A program made the position numbers and the translations under genes. This document shows positions 17,459 through 23,298 of a stretch of DNA of 64,000 nucleotides, piece after piece. Origin of the DNA: Cytophagaceae bacterium (GTDB taxonomy: Bacteria; Bacteroidota; Bacteroidia; Cytophagales; Spirosomataceae); assembly GCA_005791165.1 (NCBI GenBank), contig SXXW01000030.1, positions 62,001 through 126,000 on the forward strand, given 5' to 3'. The number at the start of each line of letters is the position of its first letter. Positions within the stretch are counted from its first letter, which is position 1. A model generated the notes under the pieces. It was not told the DNA's origin, did no database searches, and saw only the letters and a program-made list of their open reading frames with translations.

Positions 17459-18466
17459 TTATGCTTGCATTCGATTTTTAACCAATTCTATTGCGAGGAA
17501 AAAGGCATGCAAAAATGAATTAGGATCCGCTTCATTTTTACCGGCAATATCATACGCGGTTCCATGGTCTGGAGAAGTACGGATGATCGGTAAGCCCGCA
17601 GTAAAATTAACGCCTGTTTCAAATGCAATATATTTGAAGGGAATTAATCCTTGGTCATGGTACATGGCCAAAACACCATCAAATTCCTTGAACTGCGCTT
17701 TCCCGAAGAACCCGTCGGCCGGGTAGGGTCCAAAAACCAATTGGGCTTTCGTCCTAAACTCTTCCACCACTGGCTGAATAATATCTAATTCCTCTTGGCC
17801 CAAAAGCCCGGAATCACCGGCATGAGGATTTAATCCTAAAACAGCTAATTTGGGTTTTTCAATGGAGAAATCTTCCTTTAAACTCAGAAGGAATAAATCG
17901 ATTTTTTCCTTGATTAATTCTTTTGTAAGAGTTTTTGCTACCTCTTGAAGGGGTAAATGTCCCGTAACAACTCCCATGCGAATATCTTCGGAAACTAACA
18001 TCATTAAAGATGATTTTGCTTCAAATCGGTCCGTCAAATATTCCGTATGTCCAGGGAAGTTAAATTCTTCGGATTGTATGTTATGTTTGTTGATAGGTGC
18101 CGTAACCAAAGCAGATAAAAGTCCTTTATCTAAATCTTTAGCAGATCTGTCTAAGCAGGCGAAAGCAGCTTTTCCAGCTTCTGGAGTTTCTTTTCCTGGC
18201 TCTACACGGGTGTTCGCATCATCCCAACTATTGATCAAATAAATCTGATCTGGTGAGATGTTCGCTAGGTCGCTAATCGTTTTAAATTGGAAGTCCCTAG
18301 CTTCCATGGCATTTTTATAGTAAATAAGTATTTTTTGAGAACCATAGATGATGGGCACGCACCATTGTAAAATTTGCGGATTTGATAAAGCTTTTATGAT
18401 TACTTCCGGGCCAATGCCATTATAATCTCCTAACGTTATACCGATCAATGGTTTTGTTGCGCTCAT
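17459..18466 (-). CDS. pdxA: 4-hydroxythreonine-4-phosphate dehydrogenase
   Basis: PdxA oxidises 4-phosphohydroxy-L-threonine in the deoxyxylulose phosphate-dependent pyridoxal phosphate pathway. It has 335 residues, the usual length. Motifs include GITLGDYNGIGPEV at the N-terminus, FPGHTEYL and LNPHAGDSG with metal-binding histidines, and MYHDQGLIPFKY and TSPDHGTAYDIAG near the C-terminus. It heads a - strand operon of pdxA, the 2-hydroxyacid dehydrogenase gene, mutS2 and the broken TPR gene. It diverges from the pyruvate carboxylase gene across a 221-base AT-rich gap. Confidence 0.95.
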   Translation of the reverse strand: MSATKPLIGITLGDYNGIGPEVIIKALSNPQILQWCVPIIYGSQKILIYYKNAMEARDFQFKTISDLANISPDQIYLINSWDDANTRVEPGKETPEAGKAAFACLDRSAKDLDKGLLSALVTAPINKHNIQSEEFNFPGHTEYLTDRFEAKSSLMMLVSEDIRMGVVTGHLPLQEVAKTLTKELIKEKIDLFLLSLKEDFSIEKPKLAVLGLNPHAGDSGLLGQEELDIIQPVVEEFRTKAQLVFGPYPADGFFGKAQFKEFDGVLAMYHDQGLIPFKYIAFETGVNFTAGLPIIRTSPDHGTAYDIAGKNEADPNSFLHAFFLAIELVKNRMQA

Positions 18467-18687: not shown

Positions 18688-21600
18688 ATGCCAAAATCAT
18701 ACGTAAATAAAATCTCTAGTCTTCTTATTGCTAATCGGGGTGAAATTGCGATTCGAATTATGCGAGCGGCTTCTGAATTAGGAATTCGGACTGTTGCCGT
18801 ATATACTTTTGAAGATCGCTATTCTCTGCACCGTTACAAGGCAGATGAGGCCTACCAAATTGGAAAAGAAAATGAGCCGCTTAAGCCCTATCTGGATATT
18901 GAGGGGTTGATTTCTTTATGTAAATCCAAGAAAATAGATGCCATTCATCCCGGATATGGTTTTCTTTCTGAGAACGTAAAGCTTGCTTTGAGGTGTAGAG
19001 AAGAAGGAATCGTATTTGTCGGACCTTCACCGGAAGCGATGAATGCACTTGGAGATAAAGTTGCGGCAAAGGTAGCTGCTCATAAGGCCAATGTACCTAT
19101 GATTCAGGACTCCAAGGGAGATTTAAGCGTATATGATTTAGCCTTATCGGAAGCTAGGCGAATTACTTTTCCTGTCATGGTTAAGGCTGCTGCAGGTGGG
19201 GGAGGTCGTGGAATGCGTGTGGTTCGGAAAGAGGAAGATTTGGAAAAAGCATACCAAGAAGCGAGAAATGAAGCTAAAAATGCATTTGGTAATGAAACAA
19301 TCTTTATTGAAAAATTCATTGACGAGCCTAAGCACATAGAGGTGCAGTTACTGGGGGACCAACATGGAAACCTTGTCCATTTGTATGAGCGAGATTGTTC
19401 CGTGCAAAGAAGATTCCAGAAGGTGGTTGAGATAGCCCCTTCCTTTGGTTTAAAAGAAGAAACAAAGCAAAAACTATATGCATATGCGTTAGCGATCGGA
19501 AAGGCTGTTAATTATTACAATGCAGGAACGGTTGAGTTTTTGGTTGATAAAGATGAAAATATTTATTTCATCGAGGTTAATCCTCGCATTCAAGTTGAGC
19601 ACACGATCACCGAAGAGGTAACCGGAATCGATATCGTTCGGACTCAGATTTTAATTGCCCAAAATTATAAGTTGTCTGATTCAGGGATTTACATTTTAAG
19701 TCAAGCCGATATTCCTTTGCGCGGTTTCGCGATCCAATGTCGGATTACCACAGAAGATCCTTCGAATGGCTTTAAGCCCGACTTTGGCACCATTATTGCC
19801 TATCGAAATGCCGCTGGTTTTGGAATCAGATTAGATGAGGGGTCCTCTTATCCAGGGGTGAAAATTTCACCTTATTTTGATTCGATGTTGGTGAAAGTAA
19901 GCGCCAAAGGCAGAACATTACGTGGTGCTTCTGAACGCTTAAATAGAGCTCTAACGGAATTTAGGATTCGAGGGGTAAAAACGAATATTCCTTTTTTACG
20001 CAATGTGATCACCCATCCGATTTTTCAAGATGGTCAGTGTACGGTCCAATTTATTGACACACATCCTGAATTATTTAAATTTAAACCTACTCGGGATCGT
20101 TCCACGAAGGCGCTTCGTTATTTAGGAGAGGTGATTGTGAATGGGAACCCAGATGTAAAAGTTAAGCCCACGGCTCCTTTTAGATTAGCCACGATTCCGT
20201 TTGTGGACCCTGCGAAGGAATTTCCAGCTGGTAATAAGCAGTTGTTGGACAAATTAGGTCCAGAGAAATTTGCCAAACATATTCGAGATTCCAAGCAAGT
20301 ATATTTTACGGATACGACTTTTAGGGACGGGCATCAGTCTTTATTAGCTACCCGAGTAAGAACGCAGGATATGTTAGCTGTGGCGAATGGGTTTGCGAAG
20401 TCGTTTCCCTCTTTGTTTTCGATGGAGGTTTGGGGAGGTGCGACTTTTGATGTGGCCATGCGCTTTTTACAAGAGTCTCCTTGGAAGCGTTTGCAAGAAT
20501 TTAGGGAGGCAATGCCTAACATGTTGCTCCAAATGTTATTTAGGGGTTCTAATGCGGTGGGTTATTCAGCTTATCCTGATAATTTGATAGAGAAGTTTGT
20601 TGAGAAATCTTCGGAAGCTGGAGTTGACGTCTTCCGCATATTTGATTCATTGAATTGGATTGAGGCGATGAAAGTGTCTATCAAAGCGGTTCGAGAAAGA
20701 ACACCTGGAATTGCGGAAGCAGCCATTTGCTATACCGGCGATTTATATACGAATCCCAAATACAATTTGCAATATTATTTAGACATGGCACGCCAGTTGG
20801 AAGACGCCGGTGCGCACATGCTAGCTATCAAAGATATGGCGGGTCTGTTAAGGCCATTTCAGGCGGCAACGTTGGTGACTGAATTAAAAAAGACGGTCGA
20901 TATTCCGATTCATTTACATACACATGATACGGCTTCCGTTCAGTCTGCTACTTATTTGAAGGCGATTGAGGCGGGAGTTGATATTGTCGACGGGGCTTTA
21001 GGTGCGATGTCAGGTTTAACTTCTCAGCCTAATTTAAATTCTCTTGTAGCGATGTTACAAGGTCAAAAGAATGAAAGCCATTTGGATTTAGATTTATTAA
21101 ATGAGTATTCCAATTATTGGGAGGCCGTGCGCGCGATGTATGCTCCGTTTGAATCTGAATTAAAGGCAGGTACGGCTGAGGTTTACACCAATGAAATTCC
21201 GGGAGGGCAGTATACGAATCTTCGGGGGCAGGCAATAGCCTTGGGTGTGGGTGATAAATTCGAATTATTGAAAGATAATTACTCGGAAGCAAATAAGCTT
21301 TTTGGTGATCTAGTTAAGGTTACACCTTCATCAAAGGTTGTAGGTGATATGGCCATTTTTATGACGGCGAACTCACTGACTGCTGAGGATGTTTATGCGA
21401 AGGGAAGCACATTGTCCTTTCCAGAATCCGTGAAGGATTTTTTCAAAGGCGGATTAGGCCAACCGTATCAAGGGTTTCCCAAGCAATTACAAGAGATCAT
21501 TTTAAAAGGTGAAGTGGCTTTAGAGGGTCGCCCAAATGATCATTTAGCGCCTATTGATTTCGATCAAGATTTTAAAGAATTTCAGGCTAAATTCCCAGAC

Positions 21601-22548
21601 ATTGAGGATGGTTTCTTCGACTATCTATCTTATAAAATGTATCCAAAGGTTTTTGAAGATTATTATAAGAACCATGCACTATATGGTGAGTTGTCGGCAT
21701 TGCCCACGCCAGCGTTTTTCTATGGTTTAAAGCAGGATGAGGAAATCATGATTACGATAGAGCCAGGCAAGACGATCATTGTCAAGTTCCTGTATATGTC
21801 GGATCCTGATGAGTCGGGCTTGCGGAATGTAACATTTGAATTGAATGGGCAAGCCAGGAGAATTAAGATTTTAGACCGGAACATAAAGATTGAGAAAGCT
21901 CAACATGCGAAGGCGAAGGAGAAGGGGGATATTGGTGCTCCATTGCAAGGCCGATTGAGTCGTATATTAGTGAAGTCTGGGGATGAGGTTAAGAAAAATG
22001 CTCCTTTGTATATTATAGAGGCCATGAAAATGGAATCAATTGTTTCTGCTCCTTTTGAAGGACTGGTTGGCAATGTAGTTTTGAATGAAGGTACTGTCGT
22101 TGAGCAGGATGATTTAGTTTTAACTATTGAGGAGGCGAAATTACCCGAGCCAGATGTGGAGGAATATTTATTTGTCTATGGAACTTTAAGAAGGGATTGT
22201 GGCAACGACCTTCATCGATTGATCGCTCGAAACTCAGACTATGTGGGAATGGCGACATTCCAAGGTCAAATGTATCACGTAGCTGATTATCCAGGTATTG
22301 TGAGTTCTGAGAATGCTGCAGACCAAGTAGTTGGCGAACTGTATTTATTATCCAAAACGATCAAATTACTAAATGTATTAGATGAGTACGAGGAATTTGA
22401 TTCCGAAGATTTAACAGCTAGTTTATTTGTTCGAGAAAAGGTAGATGTAAATTTGAAAGGAAAAGTAATCAATTCCTTTGCTTATTTATACAACCGTCCA
22501 GTAGGTTCGCTGAAACGGATTGCATCGGGTGATTTTTTAAAGGGATAA
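18688..22548 (+). CDS. pyc: Pyruvate carboxylase fused to a gamma-glutamylcyclotransferase-like domain
   Basis: A 1286-residue protein from the ATG at 18688. Residues 1-455 form the biotin carboxylase domain (LLIANRGEIAIRIMRAA, AAAGGGGRGMR, FIEVNPRIQVEHT). About 535-1000 is the carboxyltransferase domain (TTFRDGHQSLLATR, HTHDTASVQ), followed by an allosteric/linker region. The biotinyl domain has EAMKMES with the acceptor Lys1114. Normal pyruvate carboxylases end near residue 1150. Here an unbroken frame continues through a short linker into about 125 residues resembling GGCT/AIG2-like folds: FVYGTLRRD (1162-1170), ADYPGIVSS, VVGELYLL, LDEYEEFD with the likely catalytic Glu, and SFAYLYNR. The first part makes oxaloacetate from pyruvate; the tail's role is unknown. 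The next gene starts three bases after the stop. Confidence 0.93.
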   Translation: MPKSYVNKISSLLIANRGEIAIRIMRAASELGIRTVAVYTFEDRYSLHRYKADEAYQIGKENEPLKPYLDIEGLISLCKSKKIDAIHPGYGFLSENVKLALRCREEGIVFVGPSPEAMNALGDKVAAKVAAHKANVPMIQDSKGDLSVYDLALSEARRITFPVMVKAAAGGGGRGMRVVRKEEDLEKAYQEARNEAKNAFGNETIFIEKFIDEPKHIEVQLLGDQHGNLVHLYERDCSVQRRFQKVVEIAPSFGLKEETKQKLYAYALAIGKAVNYYNAGTVEFLVDKDENIYFIEVNPRIQVEHTITEEVTGIDIVRTQILIAQNYKLSDSGIYILSQADIPLRGFAIQCRITTEDPSNGFKPDFGTIIAYRNAAGFGIRLDEGSSYPGVKISPYFDSMLVKVSAKGRTLRGASERLNRALTEFRIRGVKTNIPFLRNVITHPIFQDGQCTVQFIDTHPELFKFKPTRDRSTKALRYLGEVIVNGNPDVKVKPTAPFRLATIPFVDPAKEFPAGNKQLLDKLGPEKFAKHIRDSKQVYFTDTTFRDGHQSLLATRVRTQDMLAVANGFAKSFPSLFSMEVWGGATFDVAMRFLQESPWKRLQEFREAMPNMLLQMLFRGSNAVGYSAYPDNLIEKFVEKSSEAGVDVFRIFDSLNWIEAMKVSIKAVRERTPGIAEAAICYTGDLYTNPKYNLQYYLDMARQLEDAGAHMLAIKDMAGLLRPFQAATLVTELKKTVDIPIHLHTHDTASVQSATYLKAIEAGVDIVDGALGAMSGLTSQPNLNSLVAMLQGQKNESHLDLDLLNEYSNYWEAVRAMYAPFESELKAGTAEVYTNEIPGGQYTNLRGQAIALGVGDKFELLKDNYSEANKLFGDLVKVTPSSKVVGDMAIFMTANSLTAEDVYAKGSTLSFPESVKDFFKGGLGQPYQGFPKQLQEIILKGEVALEGRPNDHLAPIDFDQDFKEFQAKFPDIEDGFFDYLSYKMYPKVFEDYYKNHALYGELSALPTPAFFYGLKQDEEIMITIEPGKTIIVKFLYMSDPDESGLRNVTFELNGQARRIKILDRNIKIEKAQHAKAKEKGDIGAPLQGRLSRILVKSGDEVKKNAPLYIIEAMKMESIVSAPFEGLVGNVVLNEGTVVEQDDLVLTIEEAKLPEPDVEEYLFVYGTLRRDCGNDLHRLIARNSDYVGMATFQGQMYHVADYPGIVSSENAADQVVGELYLLSKTIKLLNVLDEYEEFDSEDLTASLFVREKVDVNLKGKVINSFAYLYNRPVGSLKRIASGDFLKG

Positions 22549-22551
22549 ACG

Positions 22552-23298
22552 ATGAAAAATTTTATTATAATTGCCTTTTGTTTGATTTCTCTATCAGCGT
22601 TAGCTCAAGAAAATCTTAAAAAAGCGCATGCTCATAATGATTATGAACATGCTAAACCGTTTTTTGAAGCGTATAAATTAGGCTTTGGTTCCATTGAAGC
22701 AGATGTCTATGCGATTAATGGCGAGCTTTTGGTCAGTCATAATTTGGCGGATGTAAAAGCGGATCGGACGTTGAAATCCCTTTATATTGATCCCATTGTA
22801 GCAGTTTTAAAAGCGAAGAAGCAAGGCAATTTTCATCAATTTTTAATTGATTTTAAAACGAATGCTGACTCAACTTTGCCCTTATTGATTAAATTTTTAG
22901 CTCCTCATCAAGAGTTATTTATTAAATCTGGGTTACGCATTGTTATTTCTGGTAATCGTCCTCCGATCAAGGACTACATTAATTTCCCAACTTGGATCAC
23001 GTTTGATGGCCGGTCAAATGAAACTTATCCTGCTGGACTAAAGAATTATGTTGTGTTGGAGAGCGAATCGGTCTATAAATTTGGCATGTGGAGTGGGCAA
23101 TCACCCATGCCTGCGGGGATGAAAGAGAAACTTAAAGTGTATGTGGAATCTGTTCATGGAGCGGGTAGAAAATTGCGCCTATGGGGAACGCCAAATACTT
23201 TAATGGCTTATCAGGCTTTGTGGGAATTGGGAGTGGATTACATTGGAACTGATAATTTGTCGGAACTTGCCGACTTTTTGAAATTAGCCGCAAAGTAA
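22552..23298 (+). CDS. Secreted GDPD/PI-PLC-like phosphodiesterase family protein
   Basis: A 248-residue protein with a clear signal peptide (FCLISLSALAQ, cleavage near residue 19), so periplasmic or secreted. AHAHNDYEHAKPF, GFGSIEADVYAINGELLVSHN and LIDFKT follow the TIM-barrel pattern of glycerophosphodiester phosphodiesterases: His, Glu-x-Asp and His in the metal site. The late motifs LRLWGTPNT and LGVDYIGTDN are also typical of that fold. Bacteroidota members are often labelled phosphatidylinositol-specific phospholipase C-like. The real substrate is unknown. It follows pyc by three bases and may be co-transcribed with it. Confidence 0.78.
   Translation: MKNFIIIAFCLISLSALAQENLKKAHAHNDYEHAKPFFEAYKLGFGSIEADVYAINGELLVSHNLADVKADRTLKSLYIDPIVAVLKAKKQGNFHQFLIDFKTNADSTLPLLIKFLAPHQELFIKSGLRIVISGNRPPIKDYINFPTWITFDGRSNETYPAGLKNYVVLESESVYKFGMWSGQSPMPAGMKEKLKVYVESVHGAGRKLRLWGTPNTLMAYQALWELGVDYIGTDNLSELADFLKLAAK

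Follow-up and report, generated by a model that had tools for sequence, protein, structure and literature searches.

Pyruvate carboxylase (PC), a multidomain enzyme that has been studied in great depth, supplies the citric acid cycle with carbon. Here we describe a PC gene from a 64,000-nucleotide stretch of a Cytophagaceae bacterium genome (contig SXXW01000030.1, positions 62,001 to 126,000; hereafter the window), the reading frame of which runs on behind the biotin carrier domain into a further domain of the gamma-glutamylcyclotransferase/AIG2-like (GGACT) family, hereafter the tail. The best solved match to the PC part is the bacterial single-chain enzyme 3bg5, which has the same domain order: residues 6-1150 of the window protein align with residues 24-1171 of its 1173. 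The 3bg5 chain ends with the matched part, whereas the window protein has 136 further residues.

The two best sequence matches of the tail among solved proteins are YtfP of E. coli (1xhs) and YkqA of B. subtilis (2qik), known as UPF0131, which by fold come fourth and first, respectively, in the Foldseek listing order. Both are separate proteins, while the tail is fused. At the alignment position of the catalytic Glu, which the tail retains, no Glu is present in YtfP, and YtfP may therefore lack cyclotransferase activity, even though that activity gives the family its name. The human and mouse GGACT enzymes (A2LD1; 3jub and 1vkb) share with the tail the fold (template modelling (TM) score 0.63-0.69 by query), the YGTL loop, Glu82 (tail E1235) and Tyr115 (tail Y1266). 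They differ from it in that Tyr88 is replaced by F1247, Ile50 and Tyr143 have no partner, structural-alignment identity is 20-21%, and the tail is joined to PC. Among the closest described systems is also urea amidolyase, in which a biotin-dependent carboxylase is likewise fused to a second enzyme, part of whose structure matches the tail fold; we take this part to be the C domain of allophanate hydrolase. Carboxylase, domain order and chemistry are all different there, and none of the allophanate hydrolase families of Pfam was matched by the tail. At the level of fold, urea carboxylase-allophanate hydrolase is a precedent for the fusion. Excerpts of one paper describe fusions among carboxylase domains, including that of yeast urea carboxylase with allophanate hydrolase (PMC3199775). 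The first-pass annotation of the window knew of no described link between PC and GGACT/AIG2 proteins, and in good agreement with this, we found no description of such a fusion in the open-licence full-text papers searched; automatic domain databases may list the architecture without comment. What is new here is a single-origin fusion, standing in place of a separate gene, on a well-known enzyme.

The frame encodes 1286 amino acids plus a stop codon, with zero internal stops, and its Pfam domains follow in the order Biotin_carb_N, CPSase_L_D2, Biotin_carb_C, HMGL-like, PYC_OADA, Biotin_lipoyl and PF06094 (GGACT). By the NCBIfam equivalogs residues 7-1148 make up a complete PC (NF009554, 1687 bits against a cut-off of 965; TIGR01235, 1629 bits against 1114), that is, the biotin carboxylase, carboxyltransferase (CT), PYC_OADA and biotinyl parts are found in a single chain above the equivalog cut-offs. 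The CT domain has the motifs TFRDGHQ at residue 544 and AIKDMAG at residue 713, the latter presumably containing the active-site Lys. Judged by its domains, the cut-offs, the AMKM biotin motif and AIKDMAG, this part is a pyruvate carboxylase. The tail matches PF06094 at residues 1161-1284 (E = 5.2e-20, 72.6 bits against a cut-off of 22.8; profile positions 1-119 of 120), includes the motif LDEYE at residue 1231 and starts 46 residues after the biotin-bearing K1114. The first-pass annotation had read the frame in the same way, as a PC continuing through an LPEPDVEE linker to a total of 1286 residues with the biotin lysine about 50 residues before the tail, and frame, Pfam and NCBIfam bear it out. 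In its own genome (84% complete) the fused gene is the sole full-length PC match; apart from it, a 448-codon frame matches the biotin carboxylase part at 48%, and a 953-codon frame gives two weak matches.

A fusion seen in one draft contig could reflect a frameshift, an assembly error or a missed stop at the junction. We scanned one genome per species (84,980 genomes) using the end of the carrier domain, the linker and the tail of the window protein as probes; since these are the window's own peptides, the scan reaches close relatives only, and it did not show the fused genera with tails about 50-57% identical. It returned 44 loci, namely 36 of the fused kind and eight separate frames of 134-155 codons (seven from Rheinheimera, one from a gammaproteobacterial metagenome-assembled genome). 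At all 36 fused-kind loci (L005-L040) the EAMKM motif reads into the tail in frame; the frame is complete in 30, with 1288-1341 codons from stop to stop, and open at a 5' contig end in the remaining six. These loci include isolates of Aquirufa antheringensis, A. nivalisilvae, A. ecclesiirivi, A. aurantiipilula, A. beregesia and A. rosea as well as of Sandaracinomonas limnophila. Where PC is complete and unfused, as in 15 relatives, it ends in a stop near residue 1148. The fusion is thus real, fixed and encoded by one continuous gene. We found no evidence supporting an assembly error or missed stop at this junction; the in-frame loci from named isolates and the single clade formed by the fused sequences in both trees described below speak against it, and we reject this explanation as practically refuted. 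A frameshift, or two genes separated by a stop, had been named in the first-pass annotation as what would overturn the fusion, and inside the clade both are excluded.

How widely is the fusion distributed? Sampling covered the window's family (Spirosomataceae), order and phylum, with only the close-relative scan extending further. A PF06094 genome search of the family sample (200 genomes) gave a match in 193 genomes, 181 of which have exactly one. Among the matches listed, at least 43 lie inside frames of 501-1341 codons: those of all 33 window-genus genomes that have a match, plus 10 from other genera. The 34th window-genus genome, G159, has no PF06094 match, and a contig end truncates its PC. 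With eight further genomes (G028, G052, G065, G088, G097, G105, G113 and G077, the last with its fused PC in pieces) the total comes to 51 fused genomes from eight genera (g1, g2, g6, g10, g11, g28, g30 and g36), and the tail frame was re-found in all 51. The 36 scan loci overlap with these genomes, with agreeing frame lengths, and the two counts are therefore not independent. In the order sample (390 genomes) PC is matched in 181 genomes at E <= 1e-200; the tail, among the matches listed, is matched in 12, all from the window's family. In the phylum sample (395 genomes) the tail probe matches 54, with a PC-length frame only for the window's own match. Outside the window's family, then, no fusion was found among the listed order-sample matches or the 395 phylum genomes.

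The first-pass annotation had suggested mapping the fusion on a tree. In a maximum-likelihood tree of 31 PC cores, from which the tail had been removed (one pair is identical), the 14 fused rows form one clade (support 100/100), which the unfused pair g33 and g20 adjoins with weak support (84/81). The 14 tails likewise fall into one clade (100/99) in a tree of 62 GGACT domains. One clade in both trees points to one old origin, and the simple reading is that the genes were fused once and the fusion was then inherited.

We next compared the locations of PC and GGACT in 41 genomes of the family. Twelve are fused, each with a single PF06094 match, which is the fused one; 27 are unfused and carry a separate GGACT frame of 129-201 codons; and in two no GGACT was found, namely G159 and G035 (63% complete, with an unfused PC in pieces). 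A separate GGACT is present in each of the 12 genomes that yielded no PC, some of which are incomplete. Of the 15 unfused genomes whose PC is complete, 10 have the separate gene on a different contig and five have it 0.7-3.5 Mb from PC; an origin of the fusion by read-through of two adjacent genes is therefore unsupported. Searches differ in what they recover: the PF06094 hidden Markov model (HMM) search of genomes gave false negatives in G047, G048, G049 and G133, all of which have a separate GGACT that turned up when the fused protein was used as a BLAST query; in G123 neither search found a separate GGACT; and BLAST at 1e-12 recovered only 20 of the 27 separate copies. Because each search misses copies, we ran a tail search (E <= 0.01) over the 51 fused genomes and, as controls, over the seven unfused genomes whose separate copy BLAST at 1e-12 had missed. 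The separate copy was found in 7/7 controls, while in 51/51 fused genomes the fused domain was the only intact GGACT match. This pattern fits a relocated or replaced gene and speaks against a newly recruited, PC-only regulator.

The reading we prefer, with a probability of roughly 0.62, is that a GGACT-family gene, usually single-copy in the family, was fused a single time to the PC gene, at its 3' end, in an ancestor shared by the Aquirufa/Sandaracinomonas clade and its relatives, that the separate copy was then lost in the fused clade, and that the tail keeps the standalone protein's job. This last step is suggested by the tail being the only intact GGACT where fused, with a separate gene in unfused relatives. 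The tail would then be a folded, active GGACT domain with its catalytic Glu, attached to the PC biotin carrier domain through a short linker of fixed length and probably releasing 5-oxoproline from a gamma-glutamyl-amine or gamma-glutamyl-peptide substrate. The PC half would most likely work as usual, forming oxaloacetate from pyruvate with ATP, bicarbonate and biotin, and would assemble into the usual tetramer. Across a whole clade, an extra domain behind the PC biotin carrier takes the place of a small protein that is encoded separately in nearly all other members of the family. The fusion thus offers a handle on the role of the GGACT family in bacteria, as dose and place are tied to PC here, and on whether cargo at the C-terminus of the PC carrier domain is just tolerated or put to use. 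It also carries a warning for annotation: the GGACT gene looks absent from fused genomes if only separate genes are counted.

According to excerpts of a paper on GGACT, the active site of the mouse enzyme (A2LD1) comprises Tyr7, Gly8, Thr9, Leu10, Ile50, Glu82, Tyr88, Tyr115 and Tyr143 (PMC2954230). Six of the seven alignable residues are kept in the tail (Y1164, G1165, T1166, L1167, E1235 and Y1266), the exception being Tyr88. The A3 profile aligns with human GGACT 3jub in such a way that the Glu of the 3jub DDFE motif, residue 82, corresponds to E1235; the E82Q mutant structure of the human enzyme (3jud) is also among the fold matches. No variation at the Tyr, Gly, Leu, Glu and Tyr115 positions was seen among the 12 fused and 30 standalone sequences compared, E1235 being matched by Glu in 12/12 and 30/30, while the site Thr is found in 12/12 fused and 29/30 standalone sequences. 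The suggestion of the first-pass annotation that the tail might cleave gamma-glutamyl peptides is supported only at the level of these residues. A biotinidase-like action of the tail on biotinyl-lysine was set aside on chemical grounds, as GGACT-type cyclisation requires the alpha-amino group of a gamma-glutamyl donor.

An AlphaFold model of the tail alone (pLDDT 86, pTM 0.82, 43 sequences) was used for a Foldseek search, which returned 13 entries at probability 1.00, six of them titled or named GGACT, AIG2-like or UPF0131: YkqA, PH0828, mouse GGACT, YtfP, human GGACT (three), c4763 (two chains), two Arabidopsis proteins, a Kluyveromyces allophanate hydrolase and a Paulinella transit-peptide part. 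By model and PF06094 match the tail is assigned a GGCT-like fold, the one originally proposed for it. The Kluyveromyces match (4ist, E = 5.9e-4, TM score 0.60 by query), together with the fusion of yeast allophanate hydrolase to a biotin-dependent urea carboxylase reported in excerpts of PMC3199775 and PMC5770610, raises the idea that the tail handles carboxyl or carbamate chemistry beside biotin, much as in urea amidolyase an allophanate hydrolase domain carries out a later step next to urea carboxylase. However, by sequence the tail belongs to PF06094 only and has the GGACT motifs, and PC needs no extra carboxyl-handling step, which makes this idea very improbable.

Several points weigh against the preferred reading. 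Residue 1247 is Phe in 12/12 fused sequences and in only 2/30 standalone ones, 28 of which have Tyr, meaning that substrate or rate may have changed. The GGACT tree leaves the nearest standalone relative of the tail unsettled, and the lost family gene may thus not be the tail's source. Many of the fused genomes are drafts that are less than 90% complete. To our knowledge, there is no known substrate for the bacterial standalone GGACT proteins compared here. PF03746, which we take to be PxpA, part of 5-oxoprolinase, is present in only 3/10 fused genomes tested and in 2/6 unfused ones. Finally, the linker is free of gapped columns in 12 fused sequences and invariant at 7/11 columns, and its mean identity to the window (0.85) is close to that of the carrier domain (0.88) and above that of the tail (0.58), which is more conservation than a passive tether needs and hints that junction geometry matters.

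The last of these points, a strongly conserved linker of fixed length directly after the carrier domain, and the fusion-specific Tyr-to-Phe difference in the active site would also suit a tail acting as a sensor or regulator of PC, one that alters carrier-domain movement by binding, and maybe slowly converting, a gamma-glutamyl compound or 5-oxoproline. The PC carrier domain is flexible, and its movement is a control point on which acetyl-CoA acts, according to excerpts of PMC5895798; cargo placed there could matter for control. We nevertheless consider regulation of this kind unlikely. The catalytic Glu is invariant, just one of the 67 carrier-domain columns is fixed and fusion-specific, and the separate GGACT genes of relatives in which no PC was found, with no intact separate copy where fused, point to the old job. 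The first-pass annotation had raised a ligand-binding tail that controls carboxylation, an idea that received no direct support. Its suggestion that the tail lies close to the swinging arm is correct in terms of sequence distance; the 823-residue CT-carrier-tail model came out poorly (pLDDT 47, pTM 0.35) and was not used, and we therefore make no claim on contacts between tail and PC. A bolder proposal, which is tentative at best, would have a cyclotransferase or gamma-glutamyl sensor tail mechanically coupled to the swinging carrier by a conserved stiff linker, uniting PC activity and the breakdown of gamma-glutamyl amines or peptides in one machine; we know of no other pyruvate carboxylase with such anaplerotic control.

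Selection was assessed from the ratio of nonsynonymous to synonymous substitution rates (dN/dS) between the window and seven relatives with unsaturated PC dS, comparisons which all share the window as partner and so are not independent. PC has ratios of 0.010-0.019 and the tail of 0.038-0.100; purifying selection acts on both, less tightly on the tail. In the more distant fused genera, the tail has a proportion of nonsynonymous differences (pN) of 0.28-0.33 in eight of nine rows and a dN of 0.35 in the ninth, compared with 0.12-0.14 for PC. Six PC columns, the carrier-domain one included, are fixed and fusion-specific; so few columns give no hint that PC and tail have co-adapted extensively.

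The faster variation of the tail would be expected if the two activities were independent and the fusion brought only shared expression or stability. Such neutral hitch-hiking also agrees with the finding that separate GGACT genes are not beside PC and have no PC-related recurrent neighbour (their surroundings hold several small recurrent clusters, none of them PC-like as judged by reading the sequences), and with the absence of a pathway link through PF03746 or the gamma-glutamyltranspeptidase PF01019. However, the ungapped linker and the lack of any split form among the 51 fused genomes, although a split would count as unfused, argue against it, and we regard it as quite improbable. Since PF01019 is present in 9/10 fused and 6/6 unfused genomes, and neither it nor PF03746 tracks the fusion, 5-oxoproline disposal was dropped as a reason for the fusion.

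Table 1. Features of the fused gene and its neighbours (window coordinates)
Feature	Coordinates	Strand	Basis
Fused gene, PC plus GGACT domain, 1286 aa	18688..22548	+	reading frame, Pfam, NCBIfam
Biotin carboxylase domain, residues 9-458	18712..20061	+	Pfam Biotin_carb_N, CPSase_L_D2, Biotin_carb_C
CT domain, residues 536-831 (bounds approximate)	20293..21180	+	Pfam HMGL-like, NCBIfam, motifs
PYC_OADA conserved carboxylase domain, residues 832-1033	21181..21786	+	Pfam
Biotinyl carrier domain, residues 1082-1148	21931..22131	+	Pfam Biotin_lipoyl
Biotin-bearing lysine K1114 in EAMKM (starts at 1111)	22027..22029	+	motif
Linker, residues 1149-1159 (11 residues), ending LPEPDVEE (1152-1159)	22132..22164	+	motif, alignment
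GGACT (gamma-glutamylcyclotransferase/AIG2-like) domain, the tail, residues 1160-1286	22165..22545	+	Pfam, alignment, model, fold match
YGTL motif, residues 1164-1167, matching GGACT active-site Tyr7-Gly8-Thr9-Leu10	22177..22188	+	alignment
E1235, aligning with Glu82 of human GGACT	22390..22392	+	alignment
F1247, aligning with active-site Tyr88 of GGACT	22426..22428	+	alignment
Gene with GDPD_2 match	22552..23298		Pfam, below cut-off
pdxA	17459..18466	-	PF04166

Two individual fused genomes deserve mention. In G028 (g28) the sole PC and GGACT found sit on a 4176-bp contig (C204, locus L086) that is almost identical to g36, and the g28 fusion may represent a misbinned contig. In G052 the fused gene is followed, about 0.6 kb further downstream, by a partial second GGACT copy (L087, C1:101556-101798; 81 residues matched, 85-codon frame), apparently a local duplication that has since decayed. 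Other long frames containing GGACT were seen in three phylum genomes (441, 441 and 451 codons); a long frame overlapping the one at L156 suggests that the latter is a chance frame.

As for the neighbourhood, the GDPD_2-like gene starts three bases after the PC stop, and a homologue follows the fused gene in 36/36 scan loci and in L079 and L133, though none was found in eight further loci of fused genera that were checked. The gene upstream of the fusion is pdxA, which runs in the opposite direction; a homologue of it is present in 30/36 scan loci and in 6/10 of the other fused loci checked, and some of the loci do not extend far enough to reveal it.

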